A stretch of 64,000 bases of DNA from an uncultured SAR116 cluster alpha proteobacterium (lineage in GTDB: Bacteria > Pseudomonadota > Alphaproteobacteria > Puniceispirillales > Marisalimonadaceae): assembly GCA_902592615.1 (NCBI GenBank), contig CACJFI010000004.1, positions 1 through 64,000 of the forward strand. The letters run 5' to 3'. A program made the position numbers and the translations under genes. Below the pieces are notes generated by a model, which was not told the DNA's origin, ran no database searches, and was given only the letters and a program-made list of their open reading frames with translations. Position 1 is the stretch's first letter. The number at the start of each line of letters is the position of its first letter. Below are positions 6,572 through 55,603 of the stretch, piece after piece.

Positions 6572-7882
6572 TCAGATATTATACAACTTAATTTCAGGAA
6601 AATGTGATTTGAATGAATTTAATTTGTCATTAGATATTTTAGCCTTAACTTTGTTGCCTATAAAATCTATATCGCAAAATGTTTCATTATATACATGTGA
6701 ATTTTTATACAACCAAGAAGAAATTTTGTAAGAGTTAATAGGTATATGAAAAAGTACCTTCGTGAATTTTTTTTCAGCCAAATTTTCGATGTAATTTTTT
6801 AAATCTTTCATGCCCTTGGGTGTTAAAGCAGAAGTTTTAACTAAATTTTTCTTGTATTTGATTTTTATATCACTCAAATCTGAATTTAAATCGCATTTAT
6901 TAAAAACATTTATTATTTTCTTTTCTAATTCTTCTTCAGTAAAACCAATAGAAATTAATGTTTCAAATACTAATTTTGCCTGATTTTCTATATTAGGGTT
7001 TGATAAATCATGAACTAACAATAAGTAATCAGCTATAAAGAGTTCTTCTAAAGAAGATTTAAATGAATCAATCAACTCTGTGGGTAATGCTGATATGAAA
7101 CCTACAGTGTCTGAAATTATAATTTTTTTATTGTCAGACATTTTTATAGAACCCATTTTTGTATCTAACGTAGCAAATACCATATCTTTAACTAATATAT
7201 CAGAAGATGTAAGGCTATTAAAAATTGTTGACTTACCACTGTTGGTATAACCAACTAAAGAAAAAATCAAAGAAGAAACACTTTTTCTGTGTTTTCTTTG
7301 AACTTCTCTGGTTTGTGTCACCTTTGTAAGTGATTTTTTTAATTGTTTTATTTTTGAATTAATCATTCTTTTATCTAATTCTATTTGACTTTCACCAGGA
7401 CCACCTATTTTACTTAAACCACCTCTTTGCCTTTCGAGATGTGTCCAAGATCTGACAAGTCTTGTTTTTTCGAAACTTAAATTAGCAAGTTCTACTTGTA
7501 ATTTACCTTCTTTAGTTTTCGCTCTTAGACCAAAAATTTCTATAATAAGCTGTGTTCTATCAATGATTTTTTTTTGTAAAATTCTCTCTAGATTTCTATG
7601 TTGTATAGGCGATAAAGAACAATCAAAAATTATTAAATCAACGAGGCTTAGGTCAAAATTATTTTTAATTTCATTAGCAACATTATTGTTTATTAATAAT
7701 GAGGATTTTGGGATACTGATATTAACTATTTTTTCAAATACGATGACTGCATCTAAGGCTGACACAAGACTTCTTGTTTCAGAGGAACGAGAAATAAAGT
7801 TTTTTTGATTAAAAATATCGTTTTGAGAAAATTTATTATTCTTAAATATAGGAAGAATTAAAAATGTTTTATAATTAACCAT
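6572..7882 (-). CDS. hflX: GTPase HflX
   Basis: HLERQRGGLSKIGGPGESQIELDKR, G1 GYTNSGKST, ATLDT, DTVGFI, NKCD. Confidence 0.93.
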   Translation of the reverse strand: MVNYKTFLILPIFKNNKFSQNDIFNQKNFISRSSETRSLVSALDAVIVFEKIVNISIPKSSLLINNNVANEIKNNFDLSLVDLIIFDCSLSPIQHRNLERILQKKIIDRTQLIIEIFGLRAKTKEGKLQVELANLSFEKTRLVRSWTHLERQRGGLSKIGGPGESQIELDKRMINSKIKQLKKSLTKVTQTREVQRKHRKSVSSLIFSLVGYTNSGKSTIFNSLTSSDILVKDMVFATLDTKMGSIKMSDNKKIIISDTVGFISALPTELIDSFKSSLEELFIADYLLLVHDLSNPNIENQAKLVFETLISIGFTEEELEKKIINVFNKCDLNSDLSDIKIKYKKNLVKTSALTPKGMKDLKNYIENLAEKKFTKVLFHIPINSYKISSWLYKNSHVYNETFCDIDFIGNKVKAKISNDKLNSFKSHFPEIKLYNI

Positions 7883-7891
7883 AAAATATTA

Positions 7892-8740
7892 CTAATTAAA
7901 ATTCTTAAAATACAAATTTCTTAATTCAATTGATGTTTTGCCAATCATACCATTACCAATTTTAATATTGTCAATTTCAATAATTGGAGTAACAAAAGAA
8001 GATGCACTAGTTAAAAATACTTCTTTAGAGTCTAACATTTCGTCTTTTGTAAATTTTTTTTCCAACATTTTAAACTTATTTTTTTTTGCAAATTGTGCAA
8101 TTGTCTTTCTAGTAATACCAGATAAAATCTTCCCATCAATTTCACGAGTTAAAATTTCATTATCATTATTTATAATCCAAATATTTGAACTAGATCCTTC
8201 AGTTACATAACCTTCATAATCAATAAAAATTCCTTCATAAGCATTTTTTTCATTAGCATGGGTTTTAGCTAAAACATTTGGTAACAACTGTGTTGTCTTA
8301 ATATCAGGCCTAGACCATCTATTATCAAAAATAGTAATTGCTTTTACCCCTTTAATATGATCTGAAATATTATTTTTCTTTTTTGATACAATCATTGTTA
8401 GTATTGGTTTGGAGTTAAGTCCAAAATAACTATGATTTCTATCAGCTACACCTCTTGATACCTGTATATAAATACTCCCAAAATTAACTCTATTTAATTT
8501 AAAGAGATTTTTGATTATTATTTTAAGTTGTTGTTTTGATAAATGAAAATTAATGTTTATTAATTTTAAAGAATTATATAATCGTGTTATATGTCCATCA
8601 TAATCATAAAACTTACCATTGTTATATAATATTACCTCATAAACAGCATCACCAAAATGATATCCTCTGTCATTTATACTAATTTTAGCATCTACAATAT
8701 TGCAATAAAGTCCATCTATATAAGATATATTAGCCATCAA
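7892..8740 (-). CDS. dat: Class IV aminotransferase, D-amino-acid aminotransferase-like
   Basis: INDRGYHFGDAVYEV, GYVTEGSSSNIWI, SGITRKTI; next to trkA as in alphaproteobacterial ntr loci. Confidence 0.8.
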   Translation of the reverse strand: MMANISYIDGLYCNIVDAKISINDRGYHFGDAVYEVILYNNGKFYDYDGHITRLYNSLKLININFHLSKQQLKIIIKNLFKLNRVNFGSIYIQVSRGVADRNHSYFGLNSKPILTMIVSKKKNNISDHIKGVKAITIFDNRWSRPDIKTTQLLPNVLAKTHANEKNAYEGIFIDYEGYVTEGSSSNIWIINNDNEILTREIDGKILSGITRKTIAQFAKKNKFKMLEKKFTKDEMLDSKEVFLTSASSFVTPIIEIDNIKIGNGMIGKTSIELRNLYFKNFN

Positions 8741-10122
8741 AAGAAATCCAAATTAACTGAAAGTAGCTCTTCAACTTTTTTCATCGATTTTACTGGAACA
8801 AACATAACTACTATATCACCTGCTTTAATAATAGTATCACCTCTTGGCGATACAATACTTTTATCATCTTTAACAATTGCACCTAATGATACATCTTTAG
8901 GCAATTTAATATCTTTTAGAGGCTTTCCTATAATTGATGAAGATTTAAGAGCCTCAAAAGATATAACTTCACCAAATTCTTCTATTATAGAATGAACATG
9001 TTCTATTTGACCACTTCTAACTTCTTGTAAAATAGATGATGCTGTCAAATTTGGCGGACTAACAACACCCTCTAGATCTAATGAATTAAATAGAGGTATA
9101 AATACAGGTAAATTTATTAAAGCTACAGTATGTGAAGCTCCAGATCTTTTAGATAATAATGAAGATAGAATATTAACTTCATCGTTATTTGTTGCAGCAA
9201 TATATGTTTCACCTTGACCTAACCTTGCCTCCAATATTATTTCTGGATCTAATGAATCTCCAGAAATTATTGTTGCATACTCTAACATTTCTGCAGCATA
9301 CCTTGCTTTATCTTTATCAATTTCTAAGATTGTAAGATTAGTTTCTGGAGATAATTTATGTATTTCTTCAGCTACTCTTATTCCAATTGCACCAGCTCCT
9401 GAAATAGTTACTTTTTCTGGGGTTATTTCAATATGACCAAACGCATTTAAGGTTCTATTAATTTGATTAGTGGGGCAAGCTAAGTAAACTCTATCACCAG
9501 ATAAAATTGTATCATCTCCACCTCTTGGAACAATCAATTTTGTCCCTCTAATGATAGCCATAACTGTAACACTTAGATCTGGAAATAAGTCGACTAAATT
9601 TCTTAAAGGTGTATCAAGTATAGGACAATCTGCTTTACAAGAAACCCCCAACATAGTGACTAGTGAACTAGCAAACTCAGCCACATCAAAAGCCCCAGGG
9701 GTTCTCCATTGATTAACAATTGCATTTGCAACCTCGTCCTCTGGTGATATTATTCTGTTTACACCTACATCTTTTAATAAATAATTAGAATATTTAGGAT
9801 CGAGATATTCTTTTGATCTTATTCGAATTATCATTGTTGGAGTGCCAAATATGGACTTTGCTACATGACATGCTGCTATGTTAATCTCATCCGATTGGGT
9901 AACAGCTATAATCAGATCTGTATCCACAACACCTGCATCTTCGAGAACGTTTGGATAAGAAGCAAGACCTAATACTCCTTGAACATCATATAATTCTGTA
10001 ATACGTTGAATAGCTTCAGAATTTGAGTCAATAACAGTTATATCAAAACCTTCATTAGATAAATGTTCAGTAATAGAAGTGCCAACTCTTCCAGCACCAC
10101 AAATTATAACTTTTTGTTTCAT
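8737..10122 (-). CDS. trkA: Trk system potassium transporter regulatory subunit TrkA
   Basis: Two TrkA-N Rossmann domains (CGAGRVGTSITEHLSNEGFDITVID; GAGAIGIRVAEE) and TrkA-C domains; downstream of ntrX. Confidence 0.94.
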   Translation of the reverse strand: MKQKVIICGAGRVGTSITEHLSNEGFDITVIDSNSEAIQRITELYDVQGVLGLASYPNVLEDAGVVDTDLIIAVTQSDEINIAACHVAKSIFGTPTMIIRIRSKEYLDPKYSNYLLKDVGVNRIISPEDEVANAIVNQWRTPGAFDVAEFASSLVTMLGVSCKADCPILDTPLRNLVDLFPDLSVTVMAIIRGTKLIVPRGGDDTILSGDRVYLACPTNQINRTLNAFGHIEITPEKVTISGAGAIGIRVAEEIHKLSPETNLTILEIDKDKARYAAEMLEYATIISGDSLDPEIILEARLGQGETYIAATNNDEVNILSSLLSKRSGASHTVALINLPVFIPLFNSLDLEGVVSPPNLTASSILQEVRSGQIEHVHSIIEEFGEVISFEALKSSSIIGKPLKDIKLPKDVSLGAIVKDDKSIVSPRGDTIIKAGDIVVMFVPVKSMKKVEELLSVNLDFF

Positions 10123-10144
10123 ATAATTTCCAAATTAATTTAAT

Positions 10145-11545
10145 TTAATCAAAATTATTAATATTAATATCTAATTCTTTTAGTTTTCTATGTAAAGCTG
10201 ATCTATCCATTCCAATAAATGTTGAAGTCTTTGCAATGCTTCCCTTAAATCTTTTTAATTGTTCTTTTAAATATTTTTTCTCAAAAATTTTTCTTGCATC
10301 TTTTAAAGATAAAGATAATTGGTTTGAAATGTCATCATTTTCATCTTCTTTATTGTGGCCCAATATTTCTGGTGGCAAATGTAAAGGTGTAATAATAAAA
10401 TTTTTATGTTTACCATACATTATGTTCAGCCATTCTAAAATGTTTTTTAATTGTCTTACATTACCTGGCCAATCATAATTTTTTAGTATTACAAGCGTTT
10501 CAGAGGAAAGTTTTAGTGTGTTATTCCCAAAATCTCTTGCTAAAAGATTTAAAAAATGAACTATAAGGTCAGCTATATCTTCGCTCCTCTTACTTAACGG
10601 AGGCACTTCGATTGGAGCAACTGAAAGTCTATAAAACAAATCTTCTCTTAATGTACCTTCTTTAATAAATTCTATTAAATTATTATTGCTTGCTGAGATA
10701 ATTCTAACATCAACATTAATTTTTTTATTTGAACCAATTTTATAAAAACTTTGATCTTGAATTGCCTGGACTAATTTAGCTTGTGTTTGAAGAGGAAGGT
10801 CACAGATCTCATCAAAAAAGAGCGTTCCATTATTAGCTTGTTCAAACAAACCCAAATTTGATAGATTGTTATTCTCCTCATTGGTTTTCTCATTCCAGCC
10901 AAACAAAACTTGCTCAACTCTTTCTGGAGATAAGGTGGCGCATGACGCAATAATAAAAGGAAAAGATGCCCTATTAGATTTTTTATGAATCCATCTAGCT
11001 ATTAATTCTTTTCCTGATCCAGATGGACCAGTAATCAAAACTCTACTATTAGTAGAAGCAATTTTATTTAAATTTTGCTTTATATTTTTAAAAGTAAATG
11101 ACTTTCCAATTAAAGTCATACGTTCATTTTCTTTTGACTCAAAGTCTAAAACTTTTAATTTTAATTTTCTATCCTCTAAAGCTTTTTCTATTAACAATAT
11201 TAATCTTTCAGCTTTAAATGGTTTTTCAATAAAATCGAATGCTCCATTTTTTGCGGCTTTCATTGCTGTTTCAATATTGCCATGACCTGACATCATTATA
11301 ACTGGTATTAAAGGGTCATGATTTTGGCTAAAAGATAAAAGATTAAGTCCAGCATTTGCATCATTATTCATCCATATATCTGTAATCAACAAATTTATAT
11401 TCTCATTTTTAATTATATTAACAGCTAGATCAAAATTTGTAGCTATAATAGCATTATAGTTTTCATCTCTTAATGTTTCAGCTACCATTTCGCAAATATC
11501 AATTTCGTCATCTACAACAAGAATAGAAATTTTATTTTTTATCAT
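10145..11545 (-). CDS. ntrX: Response regulator NtrX (AAA+ type)
   Basis: Receiver (VVDDEIDICEMV...DIWM...KPFKAERL), AAA+ GPSGSGKELIARWIHKK, Fis-type HTH; paired with ntrY. Confidence 0.92.
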   Translation of the reverse strand: MIKNKISILVVDDEIDICEMVAETLRDENYNAIIATNFDLAVNIIKNENINLLITDIWMNNDANAGLNLLSFSQNHDPLIPVIMMSGHGNIETAMKAAKNGAFDFIEKPFKAERLILLIEKALEDRKLKLKVLDFESKENERMTLIGKSFTFKNIKQNLNKIASTNSRVLITGPSGSGKELIARWIHKKSNRASFPFIIASCATLSPERVEQVLFGWNEKTNEENNNLSNLGLFEQANNGTLFFDEICDLPLQTQAKLVQAIQDQSFYKIGSNKKINVDVRIISASNNNLIEFIKEGTLREDLFYRLSVAPIEVPPLSKRSEDIADLIVHFLNLLARDFGNNTLKLSSETLVILKNYDWPGNVRQLKNILEWLNIMYGKHKNFIITPLHLPPEILGHNKEDENDDISNQLSLSLKDARKIFEKKYLKEQLKRFKGSIAKTSTFIGMDRSALHRKLKELDININNFD

Positions 11546-13720
11546 TTAATTTTTCTCATTTTTTAATTTTGATATTAAAGGAAATTTAATGATCACAGAT
11601 GTGCCTTTAAAGCTTTTTGGTTTTATTAAGATTGTCCCATTATGATCATCTATAATTTTTTTTGTAATAGCTAAACCTAAACCTGAATTACCAACTTTTG
11701 TAGTGTAATAAGGTTCTATAATTTTAGATAATATAGATTTATCAATACCAGTTCCATTATCACTTATTGTAATTGAAGCAAAATCATTTTTGTTTTCAAA
11801 AGAGATTGAAATTTTACCATTTGAAACATTATTTAATACAATATTTTCATAAGAATTTTTAATTAAGTTACTACAAGCTTGTCTTATTTGTTTTTCGTCA
11901 GCCATTACGAAGGCTTGGTCAATTATATTGTCTATATCAATGATAACATTTTCATACGATGTAACCATAGGCTTCACAAAATCTGTTATAATTTTGTTTA
12001 TATTTATTAATTTTAGTTTTGGAGATGGCATTCTGGCAAAAGAAGAAAATTCATTCACTAGATGATGAATATCATCAACTTGACGGGTAATCATATCTAA
12101 AGATTGCTCAAAAACTTTTTTGTCTATTTTCTTTCCATTATTTAGTTTATTTTTTAAGCGTTCTGCACTTAATCTTATTGGTGTAAGAGGATTTTTAATT
12201 TCATGCGCTATTCTTCTTGCAATATCAGACCATGCACCCATTTTTTGGGCAGCAATTAGACTAGTAATATCATCAAAAGTTAAAACATAACCTAAAATAA
12301 CACTATCAGATTTTTGTACAACTAATCTAGTTATTAAATTTAAAACTTTATCATTTCTTACAATTTGTATTTTATCCTCAAGGACGTTCTTTTCTGATTT
12401 TAAAAAATTTTCTATTAAGTTTTTAAATTCAGGTACAACATCTAAAATTGACTTACCATAATCTTCATTAATTGAAATATTTAATAACTCTGTAGCAGTA
12501 ATATTTGGTAGATTTAATTTTAAATCTTTATCCAATCCAATTACACCAGAATATACGCCTGAAAGCACTGATTCAGAAAATTTTCTTCTTTTATCTAATT
12601 GATCATTTGCGTGTTCCAAATCAACTCTGTTAGTCTTTAAGTCTAAAATCATGAGATTAAATGCTTGTACTAATCTTTTAATTTCATTAATATTTATTTT
12701 AGACAATACATTATTTGAAATTTTATAATCTAAATTACCACCTCCTACTTCCTCAGCTCCCTTAATAAGTGAACTTATAGGCTCAAGTAATCTGTTAGCA
12801 ATGTTAAGTCCAATTATCAATGAGGTGAACAACAAGATTACTGTAATTAAAATAAAAATAACAATAAATGAAATTTTAATATCAAATTGTTTTAGTTCAA
12901 TAGACTGATAATCTGAAACTGCAATTGAAGTACTTTCTATTGCATTTAAAACTTTTTGATCAACAAATCTTGTAATCAATAAATAAGCATCAATAAATTG
13001 AGATAATTTTATAAATGCTCTGATTTTATTCGCGTCATACTCTTTTACAATGAAAATTTCATCATTATTTGCTACATCATAATACTTCTGTGGTATTTCA
13101 GTGTAAGTATATTCAAAAACAAACTCAGAAAATGCTAAAACATTACCTATAGAGTCTATAATAACAGCTTCAGACAAGTTATGCTGCCTAGTATATTTAT
13201 TTAAAAACTTATTAAATTTATTTTTATCCGATGATAAAAAATTAGAGTTTATATTTATTAAATTTACAAGTTCTAAAATTTCTCCTCTAATTGCACTTTG
13301 ATGTTCATTTAGATACTGATTGGCAACTTCTACAGATTGAGAGATTGCAGTTGATATTTTCTTATTAAACCAACCACTTAATGTTGCGTCAAAAATAAAG
13401 ATTGAAAAAAACGCTATTAATAAAGTAGGTGTTAAAGTGATAGCAGAAAATATAATTAATATTTTTTTTTGTAATTCCTGACCAGCCTTTTTAGATTTTA
13501 AATTATTAAAAATATGTAAAAAATTTTTAAAAAAAACATTAAACAAACTTAATATTATAAAAAAAGATATTACTAAAACTAAAATGAATAAATTTTTGTT
13601 ATCATAAAATAGTTGAAATTGATAAAGAGAATTATAAATAAATAAAAAAAATGTTAATGATATTAAAAATGATAAAAAAAATAATTTTTGTTGAAATATA
13701 TTTAAAAAAAATCGCTTCAT
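11546..13720 (-). CDS. ntrY: Sensor histidine kinase NtrY
   Basis: N-terminal TMs, HAMP, PAS, IARRIAHEIKNPLTPIRLSAERL H-box, SGLGLAITKKIIDDHNG. Confidence 0.93.
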   Translation of the reverse strand: MKRFFLNIFQQKLFFLSFLISLTFFLFIYNSLYQFQLFYDNKNLFILVLVISFFIILSLFNVFFKNFLHIFNNLKSKKAGQELQKKILIIFSAITLTPTLLIAFFSIFIFDATLSGWFNKKISTAISQSVEVANQYLNEHQSAIRGEILELVNLININSNFLSSDKNKFNKFLNKYTRQHNLSEAVIIDSIGNVLAFSEFVFEYTYTEIPQKYYDVANNDEIFIVKEYDANKIRAFIKLSQFIDAYLLITRFVDQKVLNAIESTSIAVSDYQSIELKQFDIKISFIVIFILITVILLFTSLIIGLNIANRLLEPISSLIKGAEEVGGGNLDYKISNNVLSKININEIKRLVQAFNLMILDLKTNRVDLEHANDQLDKRRKFSESVLSGVYSGVIGLDKDLKLNLPNITATELLNISINEDYGKSILDVVPEFKNLIENFLKSEKNVLEDKIQIVRNDKVLNLITRLVVQKSDSVILGYVLTFDDITSLIAAQKMGAWSDIARRIAHEIKNPLTPIRLSAERLKNKLNNGKKIDKKVFEQSLDMITRQVDDIHHLVNEFSSFARMPSPKLKLININKIITDFVKPMVTSYENVIIDIDNIIDQAFVMADEKQIRQACSNLIKNSYENIVLNNVSNGKISISFENKNDFASITISDNGTGIDKSILSKIIEPYYTTKVGNSGLGLAITKKIIDDHNGTILIKPKSFKGTSVIIKFPLISKLKNEKN

Positions 13721-13778
13721 GATTTAATCATTATCACAAAAACTATTATAGTCCATAATATTACTTTAACAAATAAAT

Positions 13779-15215
13779 TTAAGTCTTTCTTTTCTTTATA
13801 ACTTCAATACCATATAAATTAATTTTTGACCTTAATGTGTTTCTATTAAAACCTAAACATTTGGAGGCTTTAATTTGATTTCCTCTAAATAAATCTAAAG
13901 TTGTTTCAATTAGAGGTTTCTCAATTTTAGATATAAAATTATTATGTAAATTATTAAGAGATAAATTTTCATCAAAATCTTTAAAATATTTTTTAAGGTA
14001 ATTTTTGAAATATAATTCTAGATTTTCTTCATATTTGGTTTCATCATCAAACCTGTCCTCTGATAAAACTTCTTTAATAAGACTTAGAGCTATGTCCTCT
14101 GTAGATGATAATAAACACAGTCTTTCAATAACATTTTTTAACTCTCTTATATTTCCTGGCCAAGAATATTCTTTAAGAAGATTCATGCCTTCATATGTTA
14201 TATTTCTATTAATAAAAGTGTTTTTATAATTGTTGTTCAAGAACGAGAAGGATAAATCTGGTATATCTTCAAATCTATCTTTTAGTGAGGGTAATTTAAT
14301 TGGAACAACATTTAATCTATAATATAGATCTTCCCTGAACAATCCTTTTTCTACGTCATTAACGATATTTTTTTTTGTTGAAACAAAAATCCTAGACTTT
14401 TCTAAATTAGAATTTTCAGGAAATAATTGAGATAAACCATTTTCTATAAAATTTAAAAAATTTTTTTGTTGTACCTCAGACAACTCAGTAACATCTTTTA
14501 TATAAATTGAGCTTCCACTTAAATCATTTACATTCTTTATATTAATTGAACTAAATGTATTAATTCTTTCAATTAAACCATCAAATTGATAATCGTCAAA
14601 AAATTTAGCATCTAAATTTATAAAAAAATTATTTGTTTTTGAACTTAAATCATGGATAGATTTTGCTATAAGTTTTTTACCTGTGCCACTATCGCCAGAG
14701 ATTAAAACAGAAAAATTTGTATTCACTATTCTTGATATTATTTTATAAATTTCTTGCATTGCAGTTGATTTCCCAACAACTGGGCCTGAGTCATATATAT
14801 TTTTAGGAATATCATTTATCATTTCCTCTTTACTTAATTTAGGTTGTAAAAATGTACTTGAAACTAAATTCAAAAGTTCTTCTAAATCAAATGGTTTAGG
14901 TAAATATTCAAATGCACCTTTTTTTTCTGCTCTGACTGCAGTTAATAATGTTGTCCTTGCAGACATAACAATTATTTTTAAATCAGGGTTATTTTTTTGT
15001 AGTTTTGGCAGAATATCTAAGGCATCTCCATCAGGCAAACCAACATCTGTAATAAGAACATCTGCAAAGTCAGATTCAACTAACCTCCACATACCTGCAG
15101 CAGTTCCACTAGATTTTACATTATAACCAGCTCTAGTTAAGGCTGTGGAAATAACAACTCGAATACTTCTATCGTCATCTACAACAATTATATTTTTAAC
15201 ATTTTTAACTTCCAT
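13779..15215 (-). CDS. ntrC: Response regulator NtrC with a degenerate AAA+ domain
   Basis: Receiver VVDDDRSIRVVISTALTRAGY...DVGLPDGD...KPFDLEELL; Walker A GDSGTGKKLIA; Fis HTH at C-terminus; cotranscribed with ntrB. No GAFTGA. Confidence 0.88.
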   Translation of the reverse strand: MEVKNVKNIIVVDDDRSIRVVISTALTRAGYNVKSSGTAAGMWRLVESDFADVLITDVGLPDGDALDILPKLQKNNPDLKIIVMSARTTLLTAVRAEKKGAFEYLPKPFDLEELLNLVSSTFLQPKLSKEEMINDIPKNIYDSGPVVGKSTAMQEIYKIISRIVNTNFSVLISGDSGTGKKLIAKSIHDLSSKTNNFFINLDAKFFDDYQFDGLIERINTFSSINIKNVNDLSGSSIYIKDVTELSEVQQKNFLNFIENGLSQLFPENSNLEKSRIFVSTKKNIVNDVEKGLFREDLYYRLNVVPIKLPSLKDRFEDIPDLSFSFLNNNYKNTFINRNITYEGMNLLKEYSWPGNIRELKNVIERLCLLSSTEDIALSLIKEVLSEDRFDDETKYEENLELYFKNYLKKYFKDFDENLSLNNLHNNFISKIEKPLIETTLDLFRGNQIKASKCLGFNRNTLRSKINLYGIEVIKKRKT

Positions 15216-43499: not shown

Positions 43500-45155
43500 T
43501 CACACTCTATTAATATGAACATTTATTGTTGGTCTCTTTAAAAATGTTGATTTAAATTCACTTCTTATTAATTTTCTTACTTTATTAATAATGTCATCGT
43601 CAGAATTTAATATCCCTACAGAATTTTCATCAATCAAATGTTCAATTTTTAAAGAAATGTTTACCAAAAAATTTTCCATAGAATTACTATCCGAAACTCC
43701 AACTTGTGATATTTGTGGGGGAGTTGCTAAAAAACCTTCTTCATTAATAACAATTGAAGCACTAACAAAACCATTCCATAATGAATGTCTTCTCACTGTA
43801 AATCTCTCATTATTAATAGGAACTATTTCACCAGCATCATATACATGATTAATAAAATCAATTTTAGAAATCACACAAGGATTAGATCCATTTAATTTTA
43901 TTACATCTCCATTTCTAGGTTTTATGATTTGTGGCACTTGACATTGATTTGCCAACTCTACGTGAGCATCTATATGTTCTCTTGTCCCATGAACAGGAAT
44001 AGAAATTTTGGGCTTTATGTAAGAGTACATATCTACCAATTCATCTTTTGAAGGATGACCAGAAACATGAACATTTTTGTCGTCATCAGTAATTATTTCA
44101 ACACCCATTTCTATAAATCTATTTTGCACTTTTAATATTGAATTTTCATTACCAGGAATCTTCCTGCTAGAAAAAATTATTGTATCACCTTTCTTAAGTT
44201 TAATATATTTGTCAGCGCCTCTAGAAATCCTATTTAAAGCTGAATTTGGTTCACCTTGAGACCCAGTAGAAATAATTAGTATATTACTCCTTGGAATTAA
44301 ATTAATGTCAGTTGCATTCAATAGATCAGGTAAATTATCTAAAATTCCAACTTCTTTTGCTGCGTCAATTGCTCTCAACAAAGCTCTACCAATAATTAAT
44401 ACAGACCTGTCCGATTTTTTAGCAATTTTTAGTAAAGATTTAATTCTACTTATATTTGAAGAAAAACAAGTTACTAGAACTATTCCATTTGTTTTTGGTA
44501 TAATTTCCATTAATCCATCATACGCAAAATCTTCTGATGGTGTTCTACCTTCAACTAAAGCGTTAGTGGAATCACAAACCATTGCCAAAATTCCATCTTT
44601 TCCTATACTTCGAAAATCATTTATTTCAATATTTTCATTGATATTAGAAGCATCATTTAGTTTCCAATCTCCAGAATGAAATATATTTCCTATTTGAGTT
44701 GAAATTAAAATTGATATTGGGTCAGGGATGGAATGTGAAGTCCTTATAGCTTTTAATTTAAAGGGACCAATATCAAATTTTTCATTAATATTTAAATTTT
44801 TTAATTTAATATTATTATTTTTATTATTTTCTTTTAATTTTCTTTTTAAAAGAGCAATGGTAAATGGTGTGCCCCAAATAGGACAGTTTATTATATCAGC
44901 AAAATATGGTATTGCTCCAATATGATCTTCATGTCCATGAGTTAGAATTATTCCTAAAAATTTATCTTCTAAAGATTTAATGAATTCATAATCTGGCAAT
45001 AAAACATCAATACCTAAATCTGTTTCATCAGGAAATGAAATTCCAAAATCTACAAGAATCCATTTGTCTTCATAATGATACAAATTTGCATTCATCCCTA
45101 TTTCTTCAGAGCCACCAATAGGCAAAAATAATAAATCAGATTTTTTCCAATACAT
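43500..45155 (-). CDS. rnj: Ribonuclease J
   Basis: LPIGGSEEIGMN, LTHGHEDHIGAIPY, HSIPDPISILIST, FHSGDWKL, VHGTREH. Confidence 0.96.
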   Translation of the reverse strand: MYWKKSDLLFLPIGGSEEIGMNANLYHYEDKWILVDFGISFPDETDLGIDVLLPDYEFIKSLEDKFLGIILTHGHEDHIGAIPYFADIINCPIWGTPFTIALLKRKLKENNKNNNIKLKNLNINEKFDIGPFKLKAIRTSHSIPDPISILISTQIGNIFHSGDWKLNDASNINENIEINDFRSIGKDGILAMVCDSTNALVEGRTPSEDFAYDGLMEIIPKTNGIVLVTCFSSNISRIKSLLKIAKKSDRSVLIIGRALLRAIDAAKEVGILDNLPDLLNATDINLIPRSNILIISTGSQGEPNSALNRISRGADKYIKLKKGDTIIFSSRKIPGNENSILKVQNRFIEMGVEIITDDDKNVHVSGHPSKDELVDMYSYIKPKISIPVHGTREHIDAHVELANQCQVPQIIKPRNGDVIKLNGSNPCVISKIDFINHVYDAGEIVPINNERFTVRRHSLWNGFVSASIVINEEGFLATPPQISQVGVSDSNSMENFLVNISLKIEHLIDENSVGILNSDDDIINKVRKLIRSEFKSTFLKRPTINVHINRV

Positions 45156-45176: not shown

Positions 45177-45971
45177 TTAATTTTTATTATCTAAAAATAA
45201 CTTTACTAACCCAATCAAAGTTAAATCGTCTATAATTAAATCTATACTTTTTAAAGATTTTTTGAACAAATTACTTAATCCGCCAGTGGCTATAACTTTA
45301 TATTCCGAGTATTCATTAATTGATTTTATTTTTTCAACCAGACCCTCAATCATTGATACATATCCCCAAAATATTCCAGACTCCATGGCATTTATAGTGT
45401 TTTTACCAATTATAGAAGAATTCTCATCTGTTAATGGTTTTAACGACATTTTTGGCAAATTAGCTGCAGCAAGATAAAGGGCTTCCAGAGATAAATTTAC
45501 CCCAGGGGCAATTATACCACCATTATAACTACCATCTTTACCAACAATATCAAAAGTTGTAGCAGTTCCAAAATCAATTATAATAGCGGGAGAAATTTTT
45601 AATTTCTGAGCAGCGTATGAGTTAATTAATCTATCAGCACCTGCTTCTTTTGGATTATCAATTTTTACTTTTATCCCCAAATTAAGGATATTTTCATTAA
45701 CAATTAATGACTTAACATTAAAATATTTTTTAATTAAGGATTTAATATTTATGAGCGTCTCTGGAACTACTGATGCTATAGATACTCCAGTAACACTTTT
45801 AATTTCAAGTTTTGATATTTCAAACATTTTTAATAACCATGGATAATACATATCAGCTGTCCTTTTAATATCATTATTAATTCTCCAACTGGTTAGTTGT
45901 TTGATTTGTTTACCAGTAGTGTATAAAGCAAAAACAGTATTTGTATTGCCACAGTCAATTGCTAATATCAT
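45177..45971 (-). CDS. coaX: Type III pantothenate kinase
   Basis: LAIDCGNTNTVFAL, GADRLINSYAA, IIDFGTATTFDIV, GGIIAPGVNLSLEALY. Confidence 0.96.
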   Translation of the reverse strand: MILAIDCGNTNTVFALYTTGKQIKQLTSWRINNDIKRTADMYYPWLLKMFEISKLEIKSVTGVSIASVVPETLINIKSLIKKYFNVKSLIVNENILNLGIKVKIDNPKEAGADRLINSYAAQKLKISPAIIIDFGTATTFDIVGKDGSYNGGIIAPGVNLSLEALYLAAANLPKMSLKPLTDENSSIIGKNTINAMESGIFWGYVSMIEGLVEKIKSINEYSEYKVIATGGLSNLFKKSLKSIDLIIDDLTLIGLVKLFLDNKN

Positions 45972-46708
45972 AATGTTTCTTCATCTGGAAAATAAAAACT
46001 TTCGACAGAATAATATTCTAAAAATTTATTGCCAACTTTAATCTTTAAACTCCCATTATCTCCTAATCCTAAAAAAACTCCACTTATATCATTAGATTGA
46101 GAGTTTAACTTGATAACAATTTTATTATTAATATTATATATCGTCTCATTTATTTTTTGCTTGAAAAAGTTAAAACCCTTAACTTCCCAAATAACATAAT
46201 TTTTGAAAATTATTTCTAATACGACTTTAGCAATATATATAAGAGAAAATTTTTTATTTGTATGATCATATAATCTAGTAGTATTCCAATTAATTTCATT
46301 TCTAGGAGTTTTTAAAACATTTAATCCAATTCCAGCAACAATAAAACTATCAAAAGACTCTAAAAGAACACCAGAGATTTTTCTTCCCATGACAAGAACA
46401 TCATTTGGCCACTTTAATACAATTTTTCTTTTATCTACGCCCAGATAAATTAAGGTTTCTAATATTGACAAACCAATTATTAACGATAATTGATGCCAGT
46501 TTACTTTATTCGTAATTGGTCTAAGAATAGTTGATAAAAATAGATTTCCTCTCATTGACACCCATTTATTATTATTTCGACCTCGTCCATTTGTTTGTAA
46601 ATAAGATAAATATGAACTACCCTCTGGTAATCCTTTTTTTGCATTTTTAATGGCTATATCATTTGTACTAGAACAAGTTTGCAAAATATTGAGATCAAAA
46701 TATGTCAA
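45968..46708 (-). CDS. birA: Biotin--[acetyl-CoA-carboxylase] ligase, no HTH domain
   Basis: TNGRGRNNNKWVS, GNLFLSTILRP, LKWPNDVLVMGRKISGVLLE, GIGLNV. Confidence 0.93.
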   Translation of the reverse strand: MTYFDLNILQTCSSTNDIAIKNAKKGLPEGSSYLSYLQTNGRGRNNNKWVSMRGNLFLSTILRPITNKVNWHQLSLIIGLSILETLIYLGVDKRKIVLKWPNDVLVMGRKISGVLLESFDSFIVAGIGLNVLKTPRNEINWNTTRLYDHTNKKFSLIYIAKVVLEIIFKNYVIWEVKGFNFFKQKINETIYNINNKIVIKLNSQSNDISGVFLGLGDNGSLKIKVGNKFLEYYSVESFYFPDEETL

Positions 46709-46725
46709 GAGATACCTATAAATTT

Positions 46726-48417
46726 TTATCTATTAAAATCATAAGAAGTAAAAGACTTTAGATAATATTTAAATAATTTATTATTTTTGAGTTTTAAATT
46801 ATTTCCTAATTTTGGAATAATAAAATAATTTAAAAAAGCTAAAAAAATTCCAATATAGCAAACAGTGTTTCTAATTTCAAAAAGTAATTCATTATCATTA
46901 AAATTATGATTAAGAGAAAAGCTAGTATCACCTATAAATAACAAACGCCATATGATTTCTCCAAAATTACCTGAAAATAAATTATTCAAATACCAACCTA
47001 AAAAGATTATAAAAACAGAAAAAATAAATAGAGTTAATCTTAAATAAAGTGAACCTTCTTCTATCTTATTATATATATGAATATTACAATTATTTTGACC
47101 TAAAAAAACAACAATAATGACCTTAAAAGAAATATAGCTAATAATAAAAGTATAAAAAAAACAGTAAGAAAAAATTAATAAATAGCTTACATCATTGACT
47201 AATGATAATTGAGATAAAAATAATTGATTTGAATAAAACCCAGAAAAATGTGGTATTCCTAACAAAGAAACAAATCCAATTAAAATGAACAAAAACATAG
47301 AAGGACATTTTATAATAAGATTTCCCATTCTCCTGATATTTTGTTCATTATTAAGTTTTGATGAAATGATTCCAAAACACAAAGACAGTGTTAACAAAGA
47401 AATTGTAGATGTTAAAAAATGGAAAACTACAGCACTGTATAACTTTAAACCAACTCCAATCAATAAAATGCCAAATTGAATAGACGATATATATATAATC
47501 AATTTATTCAAATTATACGTTCGAAACAGTAATATTGAAAAAATGAAAATTAAAAAAGAACCCAGTAACAATATAACTTTAAAGAAGTCTAAACTCAGTT
47601 GAGTAAATGTCAAGAAACGTAGAATAAAATAGAGTCCAACAGGCAGATATAGTAAATATAAAACAAGTGAATAAGAAGTTGTATTGAGATTTAACAAATC
47701 GTACCTGGAATTTGAAATATAAAATTGACGACATCTTAATAAAAAAGAGAAAAATAAAATAAAAGTTACAATTTCAAAATTACTAAAAAATTTATTCGAT
47801 ATAGTGTAATTATTTTCAATTATTTGAATATTTTTGAATATAATATCAAAATTTATTGAGTTTGAGAGTGTGTAAATAAAATACAAACTTAAAAAAAAGC
47901 AGAGGTCAGATACTCTGTTTTCAAAAAATATATTACTATTATCAATTTTATTTTGTGAAATATTACAAATCAAATAAGTTGATAAAATTACTAAATACCA
48001 TGCTAAAAAAAACTGAAACAGATTATTTGAAGTTATTAGAACTAATACACTAAAAATTGAAAGTGACAGATAACTATTTATTTTAAAATTTGGTAGATGG
48101 TTTTTTTTAAAATTTATTGAAAATATTGTAAGTAGAAAACCAATAACCGTTATTAAAACAATTAGGCCTGAAACAAGCAAATCAAATCTTAAACTCCAGT
48201 CAATAAACAAATGATCATATTTTATTAATGTAAAGAAAAATAGTGGTATATCTTTATCTAAATTCAAAATTTTTATAAAAATAAATAGACTTAATAGAAA
48301 AGAAAGACCGTATATAATAATATTTATAACAAATAATAATTCTGTTTTTAAATTTTGATTAAAAAACTGAAATAATAAAAAACTTAATAATGGGAAAATA
48401 AATAAAAATATTTCCAT
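46726..48417 (-). CDS. Divergent, C-terminally truncated NuoL-like (proton-conducting transporter family) membrane protein
   Basis: 563 aa polytopic protein. NuoL-like stretches: IDWSLRFDLLVSGLIVLITVIGFLLTIFSI, NSYLSLSIFSVLVLITSNNLFQFFLAWYLV, NRVSDLCFFLSLYFIYTLSNSINFDIIF, LNKLIIYISSIQFGILLIGVGLKLYSAVVFHFLT, NNEQNIRRMGNLIIKCPSMFLFILIGFVSLLGIPHFSGFYS. Located immediately upstream of birA. Confidence 0.75.
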   Translation of the reverse strand: MEIFLFIFPLLSFLLFQFFNQNLKTELLFVINIIIYGLSFLLSLFIFIKILNLDKDIPLFFFTLIKYDHLFIDWSLRFDLLVSGLIVLITVIGFLLTIFSINFKKNHLPNFKINSYLSLSIFSVLVLITSNNLFQFFLAWYLVILSTYLICNISQNKIDNSNIFFENRVSDLCFFLSLYFIYTLSNSINFDIIFKNIQIIENNYTISNKFFSNFEIVTFILFFSFLLRCRQFYISNSRYDLLNLNTTSYSLVLYLLYLPVGLYFILRFLTFTQLSLDFFKVILLLGSFLIFIFSILLFRTYNLNKLIIYISSIQFGILLIGVGLKLYSAVVFHFLTSTISLLTLSLCFGIISSKLNNEQNIRRMGNLIIKCPSMFLFILIGFVSLLGIPHFSGFYSNQLFLSQLSLVNDVSYLLIFSYCFFYTFIISYISFKVIIVVFLGQNNCNIHIYNKIEEGSLYLRLTLFIFSVFIIFLGWYLNNLFSGNFGEIIWRLLFIGDTSFSLNHNFNDNELLFEIRNTVCYIGIFLAFLNYFIIPKLGNNLKLKNNKLFKYYLKSFTSYDFNR

Positions 48418-48509
48418 GTTTCACGACTTAATTTTTATTTTAAAATATAATATAAAATTATGAATGCAAATTAAAAATTAAGTGTAAAAATTGGAATAAA
48501 TAATTAAAT

Positions 48510-49730
48510 TTATCCACCAAAATCATCTAGCATTATATCTTCTCTATCAACACCTAGATCAAGAAGCATGTTTATAACTGATTGGTTCATCATTGGTGGA
48601 CCACACATATAATATTCGCAGTCTTCAGGCGCAGGATGATCTTTAAGATATTGTTCATATAAAACGTTATGAATAAAACCGGTAAGACCGTCCCATTTAT
48701 CTTCAGGCATAGCATCAGAAAGAGCCACATGCCAACTGAAATTTGAGTTCTCTATTGCTAATTTATTAAAATCTTCAACATAAAACATTTCTTTTTTAGA
48801 TCTAGCGCCGTACCAAAAAGTAACCTTACGTTTAGTTTTAATCCTATTAAATTGATCAAAAAGATGACTTCTCATAGGCGCCATTCCTGCACCACCACCA
48901 ATAAAAACCATCTCTTTTTCTGTTTCTCTGGCAAAAAATTCTCCAAAAGGACCAGAAATTACAACTTCGTCACCAGGTCTTAGGTTAAAAATATATGAAG
49001 ACATCTTTCCAGCAGGAATTCCCGTAGAACCAGGCGGTGGAGAGGCTATTCTTACATTTAGCATTACAATGCCTTTTTCATCAGGACAATTTGCCATGGA
49101 ATAAGCTCTTTCTATTGGCTCATTACTTTCAGCGTTAAAATCCCATATTTTAAATCTATCCCAATCCGCATGATATTCTTTTGCAACATCAAAATCTTTG
49201 TAAGATAAGGAATAACTTGGAGCTTCAATTTGTATATACCCCCCTGCTCTAAAGTTAACATCTTCACCTTCAGGAAGTTCTAATATTAATTCTTTTATGA
49301 AAGTAGCAACATTATCATTACTTCTAACTTTGCATCTCCATTTCTTAACACCAAAAACTTCTTCTGGTACCTCAATTTCCATATCTTGCTTTACTGCAAC
49401 TTGACACGATAAGCGGTCGCCACAAGATGCTTCTCTTTTATTTATATGGCTTTCCTCAGTAGGCAGGATAGCTCCACCACCTGAGTGAACTTTAACTTTA
49501 CATTGAGCACAGGTACCACCTCCACCGCAAGCTGATGGTACAAAAAGTTTTTCAGCTGCAAGTGTTTGTAACAATTTACCACCAGCAGGAACAGAGACAG
49601 TTTTTTCACCATTAATTGTAATATTAACATCACCAGACGAAACCAACTTACTTCTAGCAAATATAATGATTGATACCAGAGTAAGTACTATCATTGTAAA
49701 AAGAGTTATACCAAGTACAAATGTATCCAT
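48510..49730 (-). CDS. nqrF: Na+-translocating NADH:quinone reductase subunit F
   Basis: 2Fe-2S motif [20 protein letters not shown] reductase domain [34 protein letters not shown]-terminus. Confidence 0.98.
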
Positions 49731-49741
49731 TTCTAAATCCT

Positions 49742-50350
49742 TTAAAGTTTAACACCGGAAAAACACATAAAAGCCATTGCCATAAGCCCAGCAGTAATAA
49801 ATGTAATTCCAAGACCTTGCAAGCCATCCGGTATATCACTATACTTAAGCTTTTCTCTAACACCAGCCATAGTAGCAATTGCCAAGGCCCAACCAAATCC
49901 CGATGCTATTCCATATGTTGTAGCCTCAGAAAAATTATAATCTCTTTCTACCATAAATAATGAACCTCCTAAAATTGCGCAATTCACAGTAATTAAGGGT
50001 AAAAATATACCTAGTGCATTATATAATGGTGGAAAATATTTGTCTAATATCATCTCTAGAATTTGAACCAATGCCGCTATAACACCTATGTAAGAAATAA
50101 GTCCTAAAAAGGTCAGGTCAATATCTGGGAAACCTGCCCAAGCTAATGCACCCGGTTTTAACAAATATGAAAGTATAATATTATTTGCGGGAACGGTTAT
50201 TGATTGAACTATCATTACTGAAATACCTAGGCCAATAGCTGTTGATATTTTCTTTGATACAGCAATGAAAGTACACATTCCTAAAAAAAAAGATAGAGCT
50301 AAATTTTCTACAAAAATTGCTTTTACAGCTAATGATATTAAACCTTCCAT
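49742..50350 (-). CDS. nqrE: Na+-NQR subunit E
   Basis: [55 protein letters not shown]. Confidence 0.98.
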
Positions 50351-51003
50351 TAATGTTCCTTTAATGTTTGTATTTTGTATTCACGAGCCTCAACTTGAGA
50401 TTTTTTCCATGTCCTTACACCCCAGATGATAAACCCAATAATGAAGAATGCTGAAGGAGGCAGCAATAACAAACCATTTGGAACATACCATCCACCATTG
50501 CTCACTGGATCAAAAATCATTACCCCAAATAATGAACCTGATCCAAAAAGTTCCCTAATTACACCAACACTCATTAATAAGAGACTATACCCAAGACCAT
50601 TGCCAACACCATCAACAAATGATTCAAAAGGCTTATTTTTCATTGCAAAAGCTTCTGCTCTTCCCATAACAATACAATTTGTGATAATTAAACCAACAAA
50701 AACTGATAATGTTTTAGAAATCTCATAAGCATATGCTTTTATTATTTGGTCAACAAGAATCACTAAAGATGCAATTATAACCATCTGAACAATAATTCTG
50801 ATTGAATTAGGAATATAATGTCTTAAAAATGAAATAAATAAAGACGAAAATCCACAAACAGCAATCACAGCTAATGACATAACAAAAGCTACATTCAAAG
50901 AAGAGGTAACTGCCAAAGCTGAACAAATTCCTAAAACTTGAAGTGTTATGGGATTGTTATCTACCAATGGATCAGTAAGTAATTGTTTTCTAGTTTGAGA
51001 CAT
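50350..51003 (-). CDS. nqrD: Na+-NQR subunit D
   Basis: [44 protein letters not shown]. Confidence 0.98.
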
Positions 51004-51794
51004 TAAGCTTCTCCATTCTGTAAATTTGTAAGAAACTTTTTAAAACCAGCCTCACCCATCCAAAACTTTACTAAATTATCAACACCATTTGATGTAAGTG
51101 TAGCTCCAGCTAAAGCGTCAATGTGATGTTCTTTATATTTTTGAGTTTTGGCAACTGTAATCATCAGTTCACCACTATCATTGTTAAGCTTCTTTCCTTT
51201 CCATTGTGCTTTCCATTTAGGATTATCTACTTCAGCTCCTAACCCAGGTGTTTCTGCATGTTGGTAGAATTGAAGACCAAAAATATCATTGCCATTTTTT
51301 TCTAAAGCTATAAAACCGTATAAAGTTGACCATAAACCATATCCATGTATTGGAAGTATTATCTTGTCTAAAGATCCATCATCTTTTTTGAGGAGATAGA
51401 CAGTTGCAAAATTTGTTCTCCTTCCAATTGACGCTGGATCTTCTTTTAATGATATACTTAATTGAGGATCTTCAGCAGCTTTTCTATCGTCAAAACTGAG
51501 AGGATCAAAGCGATTTGTAAATTTACCCTGATTTAAGTCTACGACAATTGGCTCGAATGAAGAAAAAGATTTTTTAACATCTATACCTTCATAATAAAGT
51601 CCTGCAACTTGAAGAATGTTTTTTTGCTTATCAACTGCTTTATTTACTTCTTGAACTTCTTTTAAGTTGACAGCAGCGAATGAAACGACCATAGAACAAA
51701 CAAGGCAAAGGGTTATTGCGACTATTATAGTTTTTGTCATGCCATCAACTGGCATATTTTTAAATTTTGTTAGGATATCATTGGGTTTGGACAT
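51003..51794 (-). CDS. nqrC: Na+-NQR subunit C (covalent FMN subunit)
   Basis: [64 protein letters not shown]-attachment motif. Confidence 0.97.
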
Positions 51795-52995
51795 TAAATT
51801 TTGTCCTTCTTTTAATATTAGCCATGACTACAAAATGATCAATCAATGGCGCAAATATATTTCCAAATAAAATAGCAAGCATCATACCTTCTGGAAATGC
51901 AGGATTTAATACTCTTATCATGATAACCATAAAACCTATTAATGCACCATATATGTATCTTCCAAGATTTGTATGACTTCCAGATACAGGTTCGGTTACC
52001 ATAAAAACTAAGCCAAAAGCATAACTTCCAATGACTAGATGCCAATACCAAGGCATACTAAACATTGGATTTGTATCTGAACCTACCCAATTAAGAAATG
52101 AAGAAAAAATAATCATTCCTAAAAGACATCCAACAACCATCCTATAGTTTGCAATTCTTGTTAAAAGAAGAAAAACCAAACCTATGGCGCATGCAAGAGT
52201 AGAGGTTTCGCCAAGTGATCCCTGAATTGTTCCAAGAAAAGCATCTGTCCATGTTATTCCATAATTACTTAAACTTTCATAACCTTCGGCTGCTGCTATC
52301 CCTAAAGAAGTTGCTCCTGAATATCCATCAACTGGTGTCCAGATTGAGTCACCTGACATATAAGCAGGGTATGCAAAATATAAAAATGCACGACCTGTAA
52401 GTGCAGGATTAAGAAAGTTCTTCCCAGTTCCACCAAAAACCTCCTTCCCAACGACAACACCAAAGGCAATACCAAGCGCTACCTGCCATAAAGGAGTAGA
52501 TGCAGGCAAGGTTAATGCAAATAACATAGAAGAAACTAAAAAACCTTCATTTACCTCGTGACCTCTAATTGTAGCAAATGTTACTTCACAAATACCTCCA
52601 GCTATTAAAGTCGTTAAATATATTGGTAAAAAATACAATAATCCATGAAAAATATTCGATACTAAACTCTCAGGACTGATTCCTAAGCCAGTAAATTGAA
52701 GCAATGATATACGCCATCCTGATTGCGCTTCAACACCTACAGTAGCCAAAGCACTGTTAGTCTGTAACCCAGTATTGTAAAGGGCCCATAAAATACATGG
52801 TATAGTAGAGATCACAACGTAAGTCATTACCCTTTTCATATCTACAAAGCTTCTTGCGTGGGGAGCAACTTTTGTAACTGTATTACTTGTAAAAAATATT
52901 GTCTCAACCATTTCGAAAAGTGGATAATATTTTTCATATTTACCGCCTTTTTCAAAATGAGGTTCTAGAGAATGGAAATAATTTCTTAATGACAT
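51778..52995 (-). CDS. nqrB: Na+-NQR subunit B (covalent FMN subunit)
   Basis: LRNYFHSLEPHFEKGGKYEKYYPLFEMVETIFF; GKNFLNPALTGRAFLYFAYPAYMSGDSIWTPVDGYSGATSLG. Confidence 0.98.
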   Translation of the reverse strand: MSLRNYFHSLEPHFEKGGKYEKYYPLFEMVETIFFTSNTVTKVAPHARSFVDMKRVMTYVVISTIPCILWALYNTGLQTNSALATVGVEAQSGWRISLLQFTGLGISPESLVSNIFHGLLYFLPIYLTTLIAGGICEVTFATIRGHEVNEGFLVSSMLFALTLPASTPLWQVALGIAFGVVVGKEVFGGTGKNFLNPALTGRAFLYFAYPAYMSGDSIWTPVDGYSGATSLGIAAAEGYESLSNYGITWTDAFLGTIQGSLGETSTLACAIGLVFLLLTRIANYRMVVGCLLGMIIFSSFLNWVGSDTNPMFSMPWYWHLVIGSYAFGLVFMVTEPVSGSHTNLGRYIYGALIGFMVIMIRVLNPAFPEGMMLAILFGNIFAPLIDHFVVMANIKRRTKFNVQTQ

Positions 52996-52998
52996 TAA

Positions 52999-54342
52999 TT
53001 AACCTTCTTTTTCAATTTTTGTTAAACTGTCTCTCAAAGCAGTACCATATTCATATTTTGCAGGACATGCAAAAGTACACAATGCAATATCCTCTTCATC
53101 AAGTTCTAGCGCACCTAATGATTGAGCAACGTCGGTATCCATTACCAAAAGAGATCTTAGTAATTGTGTTGGTAAGAAATCCTGTGGCATTAAGGATTCA
53201 AAAACACCAGTTGGAACCATTGCTCTTCTTCCTCCGTTTAAATTTGAGGTAAGATTAAATAATTTAAAAAAACTAAAAGCAGATAAAAGGACAGGCATAA
53301 CTGAATATTTGTTGGGTTGAGGTTTAATCCAACCAAAAAAATGTTTCTCTTTATCTTCTTTTATAATCGTAATTTGCCTAGAATATTTTCCTAAATAAGC
53401 CATGTCTCCATTCGCATGAAACCCTGACAAAATAGAACCTGAAATTATTCTACAATCTTCTGTTTTGTTATATTCTCCTTCTAGAATATCATCAAGACAT
53501 GCACCAACAATTGTTTTAACTAATCTGGGATTATAAGACAAAGGACCAGATATTGAAATTGTTCTATTGATATCAATATAGCCTTTTAGAAATAAATTAC
53601 CAATTGCAATAACATCTTGATAATTAACTGACCATACTGTCTTATTTGCATTTGGTGGGTCTAAAAAATGCATATGAGTGCCACTCAAACCAGCAGGATG
53701 TGGTCCAGAAAATTCGTATGTATCAAAACCATTGACACTAATTTCACTATTTTCTTTTTTACATATGAAAATATTGCCGTTTGTCAATAGTGAAATACGT
53801 TTTACACCTTCTTCAAATGCTTTCAGATCATTCATAATAATAATATCTGCATCTGGGCTAAGTGGCTCTGTGTCCATGGCGGTTATAAAAATTGAAGATG
53901 GTTCAGATTGACTATCAGGGATTTTTGAGTAAGGCCTTGTTAAAAAAGAAGTCCATAAACCACTGCTAAACAAGCATTTTTTTGTGAACTCTTTATTTGA
54001 TTTTTCTTTTGTGTGAAGTTTCTTTATTTCAATACCTTTATCCTCTAAATCCTCTATATCAATAACAACGCTCAATAGTGCCCTTTTTTCTCCTCTATTA
54101 ATTTCTTTTACAAAACCTTTACAGGGCGAAACAAAAAAAGCTTCAGGATTGTCTTTGTGACAAAAAAGAGGTGTTCCCCTCTTTACCTTATCTCCTACAT
54201 TTATTAACATTTTAGGTTTAAGACCATTATAATCAGTACCTAAGACTGCTACCGATTTTGGAATTTTAGTGTCTTCTACAACTTGTTTTGGTACTCCTGA
54301 AACAGGAATATTCAGACCTTTCTTAAGATTGAATTTATACAT
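52999..54342 (-). CDS. nqrA: Na+-NQR subunit A
   Basis: FNLKKGLNIPVSGVPKQ, AVLGTDYNGLKPKMLINVGDKVKRGTPLF, FSGPHPAGLSGTHMHFLDPPN. Confidence 0.97.
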   Translation of the reverse strand: MYKFNLKKGLNIPVSGVPKQVVEDTKIPKSVAVLGTDYNGLKPKMLINVGDKVKRGTPLFCHKDNPEAFFVSPCKGFVKEINRGEKRALLSVVIDIEDLEDKGIEIKKLHTKEKSNKEFTKKCLFSSGLWTSFLTRPYSKIPDSQSEPSSIFITAMDTEPLSPDADIIIMNDLKAFEEGVKRISLLTNGNIFICKKENSEISVNGFDTYEFSGPHPAGLSGTHMHFLDPPNANKTVWSVNYQDVIAIGNLFLKGYIDINRTISISGPLSYNPRLVKTIVGACLDDILEGEYNKTEDCRIISGSILSGFHANGDMAYLGKYSRQITIIKEDKEKHFFGWIKPQPNKYSVMPVLLSAFSFFKLFNLTSNLNGGRRAMVPTGVFESLMPQDFLPTQLLRSLLVMDTDVAQSLGALELDEEDIALCTFACPAKYEYGTALRDSLTKIEKEG

Positions 54343-54535: not shown

Positions 54536-55603
54536 ATGGTAAAATTGAAACAAAATAAAACAAATGATTTTTTTAAGAATCAATTTTCAATTTTTTTTCT
54601 AATATTTATCATTTGTATTAGTTTTTTTTCATGTTCTCAAAACAAATACTATGATGCTCAATTAAAAGGGAATACAATGGGGACATATTATGTAATAGAT
54701 CTTTTACATGTTCCAAAAAAAATAAAAATTAAAAAAATTGAAAAAGTAGTTCTAGACACCCTCGTAAAGGTAAATAAAATTTTATCTAATTGGGATAAAA
54801 ATTCTGAAATAAGCACAATTAACCAATTGAATATAACCACACCAATAAAAATTTCAGATGAATTAAATGAAGTTTTTAAAACTGCAAACAAAATTAATAC
54901 TAAAAGCAATGGTTTTTTTGATATAACACTTGATCCTATAATTGAACTTTGGGGATTTGGTTACAAAAAACAAATTCAAAAAGTACCTACTGAACTGCAA
55001 ATCAAAAATACATTATCTCTTGTAGGTCAAAGATCACTTATAAATTTAGATTACAAAAATAACGAGCTCAGAAAAATAAATAAAAATGTAAAAATTAATC
55101 TTTCATCTATTGGGAAAGGATTTGGAATTGATTTAATCGGAAAAAAATTAGATGAACTTGGAATAAGAAATTACTTAATCAATATTGGAGGAGACATTCT
55201 TACTAAAGGCTACAATAAAAAAGAAGAGAATTGGGTTATTGGAATTGAAAATCCAAATTTAAATGAAAAATTAATTAAAGAAATTGTTAATATATCGAAT
55301 AAAGGTCTAGCTACTTCTGGAGATTATAAAAATTTTTTTTCTAAAAGTGGTGTAAGATATTCACATATAATCAATCCTAATACTGGAAAACCAATTACTC
55401 ATAAAACTAAATCAGTAACTGTAATCCATGAAAGTTCAATGAAAGCTGATGGATGGGCTACAGCTCTTTTAGCATTAGGAAGGGTGGATGGATTAAAATT
55501 AGCAAAAAGAGAAAATATAGCAGTTCTTTTTATTGATAAAATTGATGGTAAGCTAAAAAAGTTTAAAAGTAACAAATTTCTAAATTTAAACAAAATTGAT
55601 TGA
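54536..55603 (+). CDS. apbE: FAD:protein FMN transferase ApbE
   Basis: Lipobox (FFSCSQN), LKGNTMGTYYVI, NLSSIGKGFGIDLIG, NIGGDI, HIINPNTGKPI; divergent from nqrA. Confidence 0.95.
   Translation: MVKLKQNKTNDFFKNQFSIFFLIFIICISFFSCSQNKYYDAQLKGNTMGTYYVIDLLHVPKKIKIKKIEKVVLDTLVKVNKILSNWDKNSEISTINQLNITTPIKISDELNEVFKTANKINTKSNGFFDITLDPIIELWGFGYKKQIQKVPTELQIKNTLSLVGQRSLINLDYKNNELRKINKNVKINLSSIGKGFGIDLIGKKLDELGIRNYLINIGGDILTKGYNKKEENWVIGIENPNLNEKLIKEIVNISNKGLATSGDYKNFFSKSGVRYSHIINPNTGKPITHKTKSVTVIHESSMKADGWATALLALGRVDGLKLAKRENIAVLFIDKIDGKLKKFKSNKFLNLNKID

Follow-up and report, generated by a model that had tools for sequence, protein, structure and literature searches.

The window, meaning the whole stretch of 64,000 nucleotides analysed here, lies on contig C4 of the low-GC genome of an uncultured SAR116 cluster alphaproteobacterium (G000). 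Its minus strand carries the genes of the sodium pump NQR, which were assigned by profile search as nqrA (52999..54342), nqrB (51778..52995), nqrC (51003..51794), nqrD (50350..51003), nqrE (49742..50350), and nqrF (48510..49730; TIGR01941, 678 bits). Divergent from nqrA, on the plus strand, is a gene for an apbE-like FAD:protein FMN transferase (54536..55603), whose score lies below the cut-off of its best model, PRK10461. Downstream of nqrF, a minus-strand spacer of 92 bp (48418..48509) separates it from an ATG-initiated gene (46726..48417, minus strand) encoding a protein of 563 amino acids, referred to here as protein X. A promoter scan of this spacer region found promoter-like signals at a level not above that of shuffled sequences. 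The gene order then continues on the minus strand with a birA-like biotin ligase gene (45968..46708), coaX for type III pantothenate kinase (45177..45971), and rnj for RNase J (43500..45155), followed by DUF1467, rpiB, glyA, nrdR, and ribD.

Protein X is a member of the NuoL family, as the preliminary description of this DNA had proposed. TIGR01974 (NuoL) is the top family in the profile search (E=3.3e-61), with a score of 208 bits that is about half the curated cut-off of 407.5 bits. The protein also matches Pfam Proton_antipo_M, the PF00361 fold (E=2.3e-22), and its best match among solved structures is the NuoL of Paracoccus (8qby_L, E=2.9e-40). The Mrp, Fpo, and hydrogenase-4 models are far behind, and hence the assignment to Mrp or DabB that had been named as the outcome speaking against NuoL did not emerge. 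The NuoL-type motif NEQNIRRMGNL is present. The chain ends at about residue 546 of E. coli NuoL, near the start of the lateral helix as described earlier, so that it lacks most of this helix and the whole of TM16. An AlphaFold2 model built with 16 orthologues as input (mean pLDDT 71, pTM 0.78) has helices corresponding to TM1-TM15 with TM12 broken, and the second half of the broken TM7 is predicted, at modest confidence, to be non-helical. Foldseek matched the model to NuoL/ND5 of plants and alphaproteobacteria (E 4e-18, TM 0.77-0.79).

The residues of the proton path were compared in an alignment of the 16 orthologues, E. coli NuoL, and 33 further NuoL rows, a few of which are outliers (NuoL residues are given in E. 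coli numbering). In NuoL, the pumping path is formed by the K229/D178 ion pair, the central lysine, the distal lysine K399, and D400 at the proton exit (PMC9271201). The TM5 glutamate and the later lysine motif are altered in the window protein, as had been noted by eye: E144 corresponds to Y141 (47995..47997, minus strand), H254 to L253, H338 to S337, K342 to L341, K399 to N397, and D400 to Q398. Among the 16 orthologues, E144 (now Y, Q, or H), H254 (L, F, Y, or I), H338 (S, T, or F), K342 (L, F, V, or T), and D400 (Q, K, T, or E) are lost without exception. K399 is lost in 11 orthologues (N in 10, H in 1) and kept in five, while H334 is H in nine and Y in seven. Since this pattern is common to all the full-length orthologues, it does not stem from sequencing error. 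Conversely, D82, R175 (R168 in the window), and D178 (codon 171, 47905..47907, minus strand) are kept in 16/16 and E359 in 15/16. The position of K229 (codon 228, 47734..47736, minus strand) is Arg in every orthologue, and the ion pair therefore persists as Arg/Asp throughout the family. The earlier view that the channel residues are lacking thus holds for most of the proton wire but not for this pair.

The family has also acquired constraints of its own. When three outlier rows were dropped for the conservation count, 178 columns were invariant in NuoL, of which protein X keeps 23, is fixed for a different residue in 9, and is variable or lacks the residue in 146. A further 46 columns are invariant only in the protein X family, so that 55 of its 78 invariant columns are new or changed. 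For example, QNNCNIH (residues 441-447; 47077..47097, minus strand) is strongly conserved in the family and missing from NuoL, and the conserved motif QNNCNIHxYNK is new to the family.

Compared with NuoL/ND5, the distal antiporter-like subunit of complex I, protein X shares the ancestry, the locus, the 15-helix fold with broken TM12, the residues D82, R175, D178, and E359, and the MG motif; it differs in residing in a cell without complex I, in the loss of the proton-path residues, the lateral helix, and TM16, in the Arg at K229, and in scoring below the NuoL cut-off. Another stand-alone NuoL relative is DabB of the DAB/MpsAB CO2 uptake system, which has no TM5 Glu, keeps the equivalents of R175/D178 as Arg/Asp, requires DabA, and can still be a proton conduit (PMC13144422). 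Protein X resembles DabB in standing outside complex I, in lacking the TM5 Glu, and in retaining R175/D178. However, DabB keeps K235, H260, K310, H339, H343, and K347 (PMC13144422), whereas in protein X the central Lys and the majority of the His residues are gone. Identity with DabB is ruled out, as DabA (PF10070) was found in 0/40 genomes of the genus in a search that detected its positive controls. MrpA and MrpD have the PF00361 fold in common with protein X but are distant by profile; membership of the Mrp subunits was rejected on the grounds of profile, location, and the presence of the mrp cluster elsewhere in the genome. This Mrp-type cluster lies in the window's genome at L035 (G000:C11) 6711-14027 and encodes three PF00361 proteins in frames of 570, 492, and 497 aa. 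The 570-aa protein is present across the genus, including genomes without protein X.

The history of the locus can be read from the relatives. In genera of the same family, the slot holds nuoA-N followed by birA-coaX-rnj-DUF1467-rpiB-glyA-nrdR, and in the window it holds nqrA-F and protein X followed by birA, which marks the downstream edge of the former nuo slot; coaX and rnj are flanks common to the nuo-bearing relatives. A nuo operon ending in nuoL-nuoM-nuoN precedes the identical downstream block in two other genera of the family (G357, G350, G362, G360), with nuoM/N rearranged in the otherwise matching slot of G360, and the same block follows the nuo operon in other families of the order Puniceispirillales. 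Since a complete nuo operon occupies this slot in relatives of the same family, nqr took over the nuo position in place. NuoD is found in 75/136 genomes and 19/20 genera of the order but is absent from 39/40 genomes of the window's genus, including G000, and a search for NuoH in the genus gave the same outcome (absent in 39/40). The sole positive genome, G029, is a MAG with 5% contamination, and its nuo cluster lies on C68 and C96. In the NuoL tree, its second NuoL clusters with that of a 1.2-Mb genome from a different family, which identifies its nuo genes as contaminant; a residual complex I in the genus is thereby ruled out. nqrF was found in 26/40 genomes of the genus, which are mostly incomplete, and the sister genus g233 has it too.

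Part of this history is already known. The published passages on this locus report an exchange of nuo for nqr in SAR116 LGC2-C and LGC2-D, with a nuoL directly adjoining nqr there (Roda-Garcia et al. 2021; PMC8547437). This nuoL is very probably the same gene, and the same event, as the one described here. Those passages are silent on the loss of channel residues, the truncation, selection, and the absence from some nqr lineages, so that relative to them the novelty lies in the subsequent fate of the protein. They also describe LGC2-C as without succinate dehydrogenase; here an SdhA-type flavoprotein (TIGR01816) was found in 34/40 genomes of the genus, though the definitions of the genus may differ.

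A native origin of protein X from the nuoL of SAR116 is compatible with the phylogeny and, together with the slot, is the simplest view. The free NuoL tree placed protein X beside two AT-rich, long-branch NuoLs, but a tree holding it with the SAR116 NuoLs outscored the free search by 44 log-likelihood units (p-AU 0.985), and the free placement was therefore discounted as long-branch attraction. The stem branch of protein X is very long and saturated, which leaves its precise position among the NuoLs uncertain. Arrival together with nqr by transfer was rejected, since HTCC2181, described in those same passages as the nearest nqr relative, is without nuoL beside nqr (PMC8547437), the 1.5 kb flanks of nqrF at 30 further Pseudomonadota loci contained no NuoL-like gene, and the tree permits a native origin.

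Sixteen genomes have a full-length copy of protein X, and six others have a fragment of it at a contig end; nearly all named orthologues belong to single-cell genomes of the SAR116 cluster. A scan of genome contigs with the single sequence gave no match, and the orthologues were found by the alignment-based scan. All 16 full copies lie directly downstream of nqrF. The orthologues, which come from many independent single-cell genomes and MAGs and so rule out a frameshift or assembly artefact, are 39-76% identical to the window protein, compared with 91-99% for nqrF between congeners. Protein X is cleanly absent from the clade of G027 and G030, where the gap between nqrF and birA is about 80-100 bp, and from the sister genus (G353, G354); all four keep a complete NQR. 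In a tree of 12 concatenated neighbour proteins, some deep forks of which are weakly supported, protein X is present in G029, which forms the deepest branch of the genus, and in each of the two large clades. If nuo was replaced by nqr only once, this would mean one retention and two losses. As NQR is intact in the G027/G030 clade and the sister genus despite the absence of protein X, protein X is not required by NQR, and its role is dispensable. The earlier suggestion of an NQR partner is weakened by these four genomes, and also because placement beside nqr is explained by descent, the slot being the former nuo locus.

The gene is constrained, though less than NQR. Pairwise Nei-Gojobori dN/dS values are 0.18-0.30 in pairs without G024 and 0.33-0.44 in pairs with it, against 0.14-0.30 for birA, 0.09-0.24 for apbE, and 0.00-0.13 for the nqr genes; birA-like neighbours excepted, protein X is the fastest-evolving gene at the locus. 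In the absence of selection, about 12 stops would be expected per 0.1 substitutions/site, and none occurs in the 16 copies. The intact frames and these ratios rule out a neutral pseudogene and bear out the earlier reading of the open frame as a sign of selection and not of a gene merely dying; the ratio near 1 that would have contradicted it was not observed. In G024 (L043, 5891-8361), protein X and birA are 46-51% and 59-67% identical to close relatives, with dS of about 0.8-1.1; nqr, with dS of 0.15-0.6, and coaX are far less divergent. This suggests that the tract of the protein X gene and birA came from a deeper lineage via homologous recombination.

The best explanation is that protein X descends from the native nuoL of a nuo operon once in this slot, which the nqr operon displaced in the common ancestor of the two sister genera, the NuoL derivative staying in one of them. 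The proton wire (E144, H254, H338, K342, D400, and in most orthologues K399) is gone along with the lateral helix and TM16, but the antiporter fold of 15 helices is retained, as is the K229/D178 pair, now Arg/Asp. Arginine hardly releases its proton, and from this chemistry the pair should stay closed. Protein X thus most likely no longer pumps protons and persists in the membrane in a structural or regulatory capacity. We consider it somewhat probable that it is such a selected, NuoL-derived protein. What the data show is the kinship with NuoL, the slot, the residue losses, the truncation, the selection, and the dispensability; the loss of transport, the new role, and the partner are inferred. 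Judged by position, NQR would be the likeliest single partner, and this pairing is tentative. The fuller proposal, that after the swap the distal subunit of complex I was exapted to serve as an ion-pair-locked, non-pumping stabiliser or regulator of NQR and so became a seventh NQR subunit derived from complex I, is rather doubtful.

That the gene is a slowly dying relic, its frame still open chiefly owing to the harm that a misfolded hydrophobic protein would do or to deletions not yet being fixed, is unlikely. The traceless loss from the G027/G030 clade, the absence from the sister genus, and the fast divergence relative to nqrF are what such a relic would leave behind, but all 16 full copies are intact where dozens of stops would be expected, dN/dS is near that of birA (0.14-0.26) and apbE (0.09-0.24), most of the invariant columns are new or residue-changed, and streamlined genomes are expected to discard useless DNA.

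Proton pumping by protein X has likely been lost, and the loss of all ion movement is not proved. The NuoL mutations E144Q and K229A strongly cut the activity of complex I, and outside complex I they let B. subtilis without mrpA grow almost normally and still confer Na+ tolerance (PMC4938563), so that losing these residues is not in itself proof that ion transport is gone. Together with the retained antiporter fold and the fixed Arg/Asp pair and R175, this would fit a re-engineered carrier or leak, for example a Na+ or H+ uniport, balancing the sodium gradient of NQR via a path other than that of NuoL. Such a carrier is nevertheless improbable, as the central Lys, the bridging His, and the exit Asp have been swapped for hydrophobic or neutral residues and Na+/H+ exchange has its own Mrp cluster elsewhere in the same genome. 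This Mrp antiporter is itself built of NuoL-like proteins homologous to protein X, which might then serve as an extra subunit of it. That is very improbable, given that protein X is encoded outside the Mrp cluster, on a different contig, is closest to NuoL and not to MrpA or MrpD, and is missing from G027 and G030, which keep the 570-aa Mrp-cluster protein.

Marine bacteria often replace one respiratory entry complex by another, but the survival of a single large membrane subunit from the discarded complex is odd. Here the proton-pumping complex I was exchanged for the sodium pump NQR, and one altered membrane subunit of complex I was kept under selection. As a selected, non-pumping derivative, protein X would offer a natural experiment separating the parts of an antiporter-like subunit that serve structure from those that serve pumping. 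Should it bind NQR, one respiratory complex would have recruited a component of another, unrelated one.

Some irregular frames were observed at the loci of relatives. In G360 (L143, 9324-10313), an ORF of 329 aa beside an intact nuoL fuses the NuoM N-terminus with a C-terminal portion of NuoN, reflecting either a true complex I deletion or a chimera of the single-cell genome. Likewise, nqrA lies in two ORFs in G035 (L046, 15361-16705) and rnj in two ORFs in G062 (L090, 5641-7295), each reflecting a sequencing error or a real frameshift.
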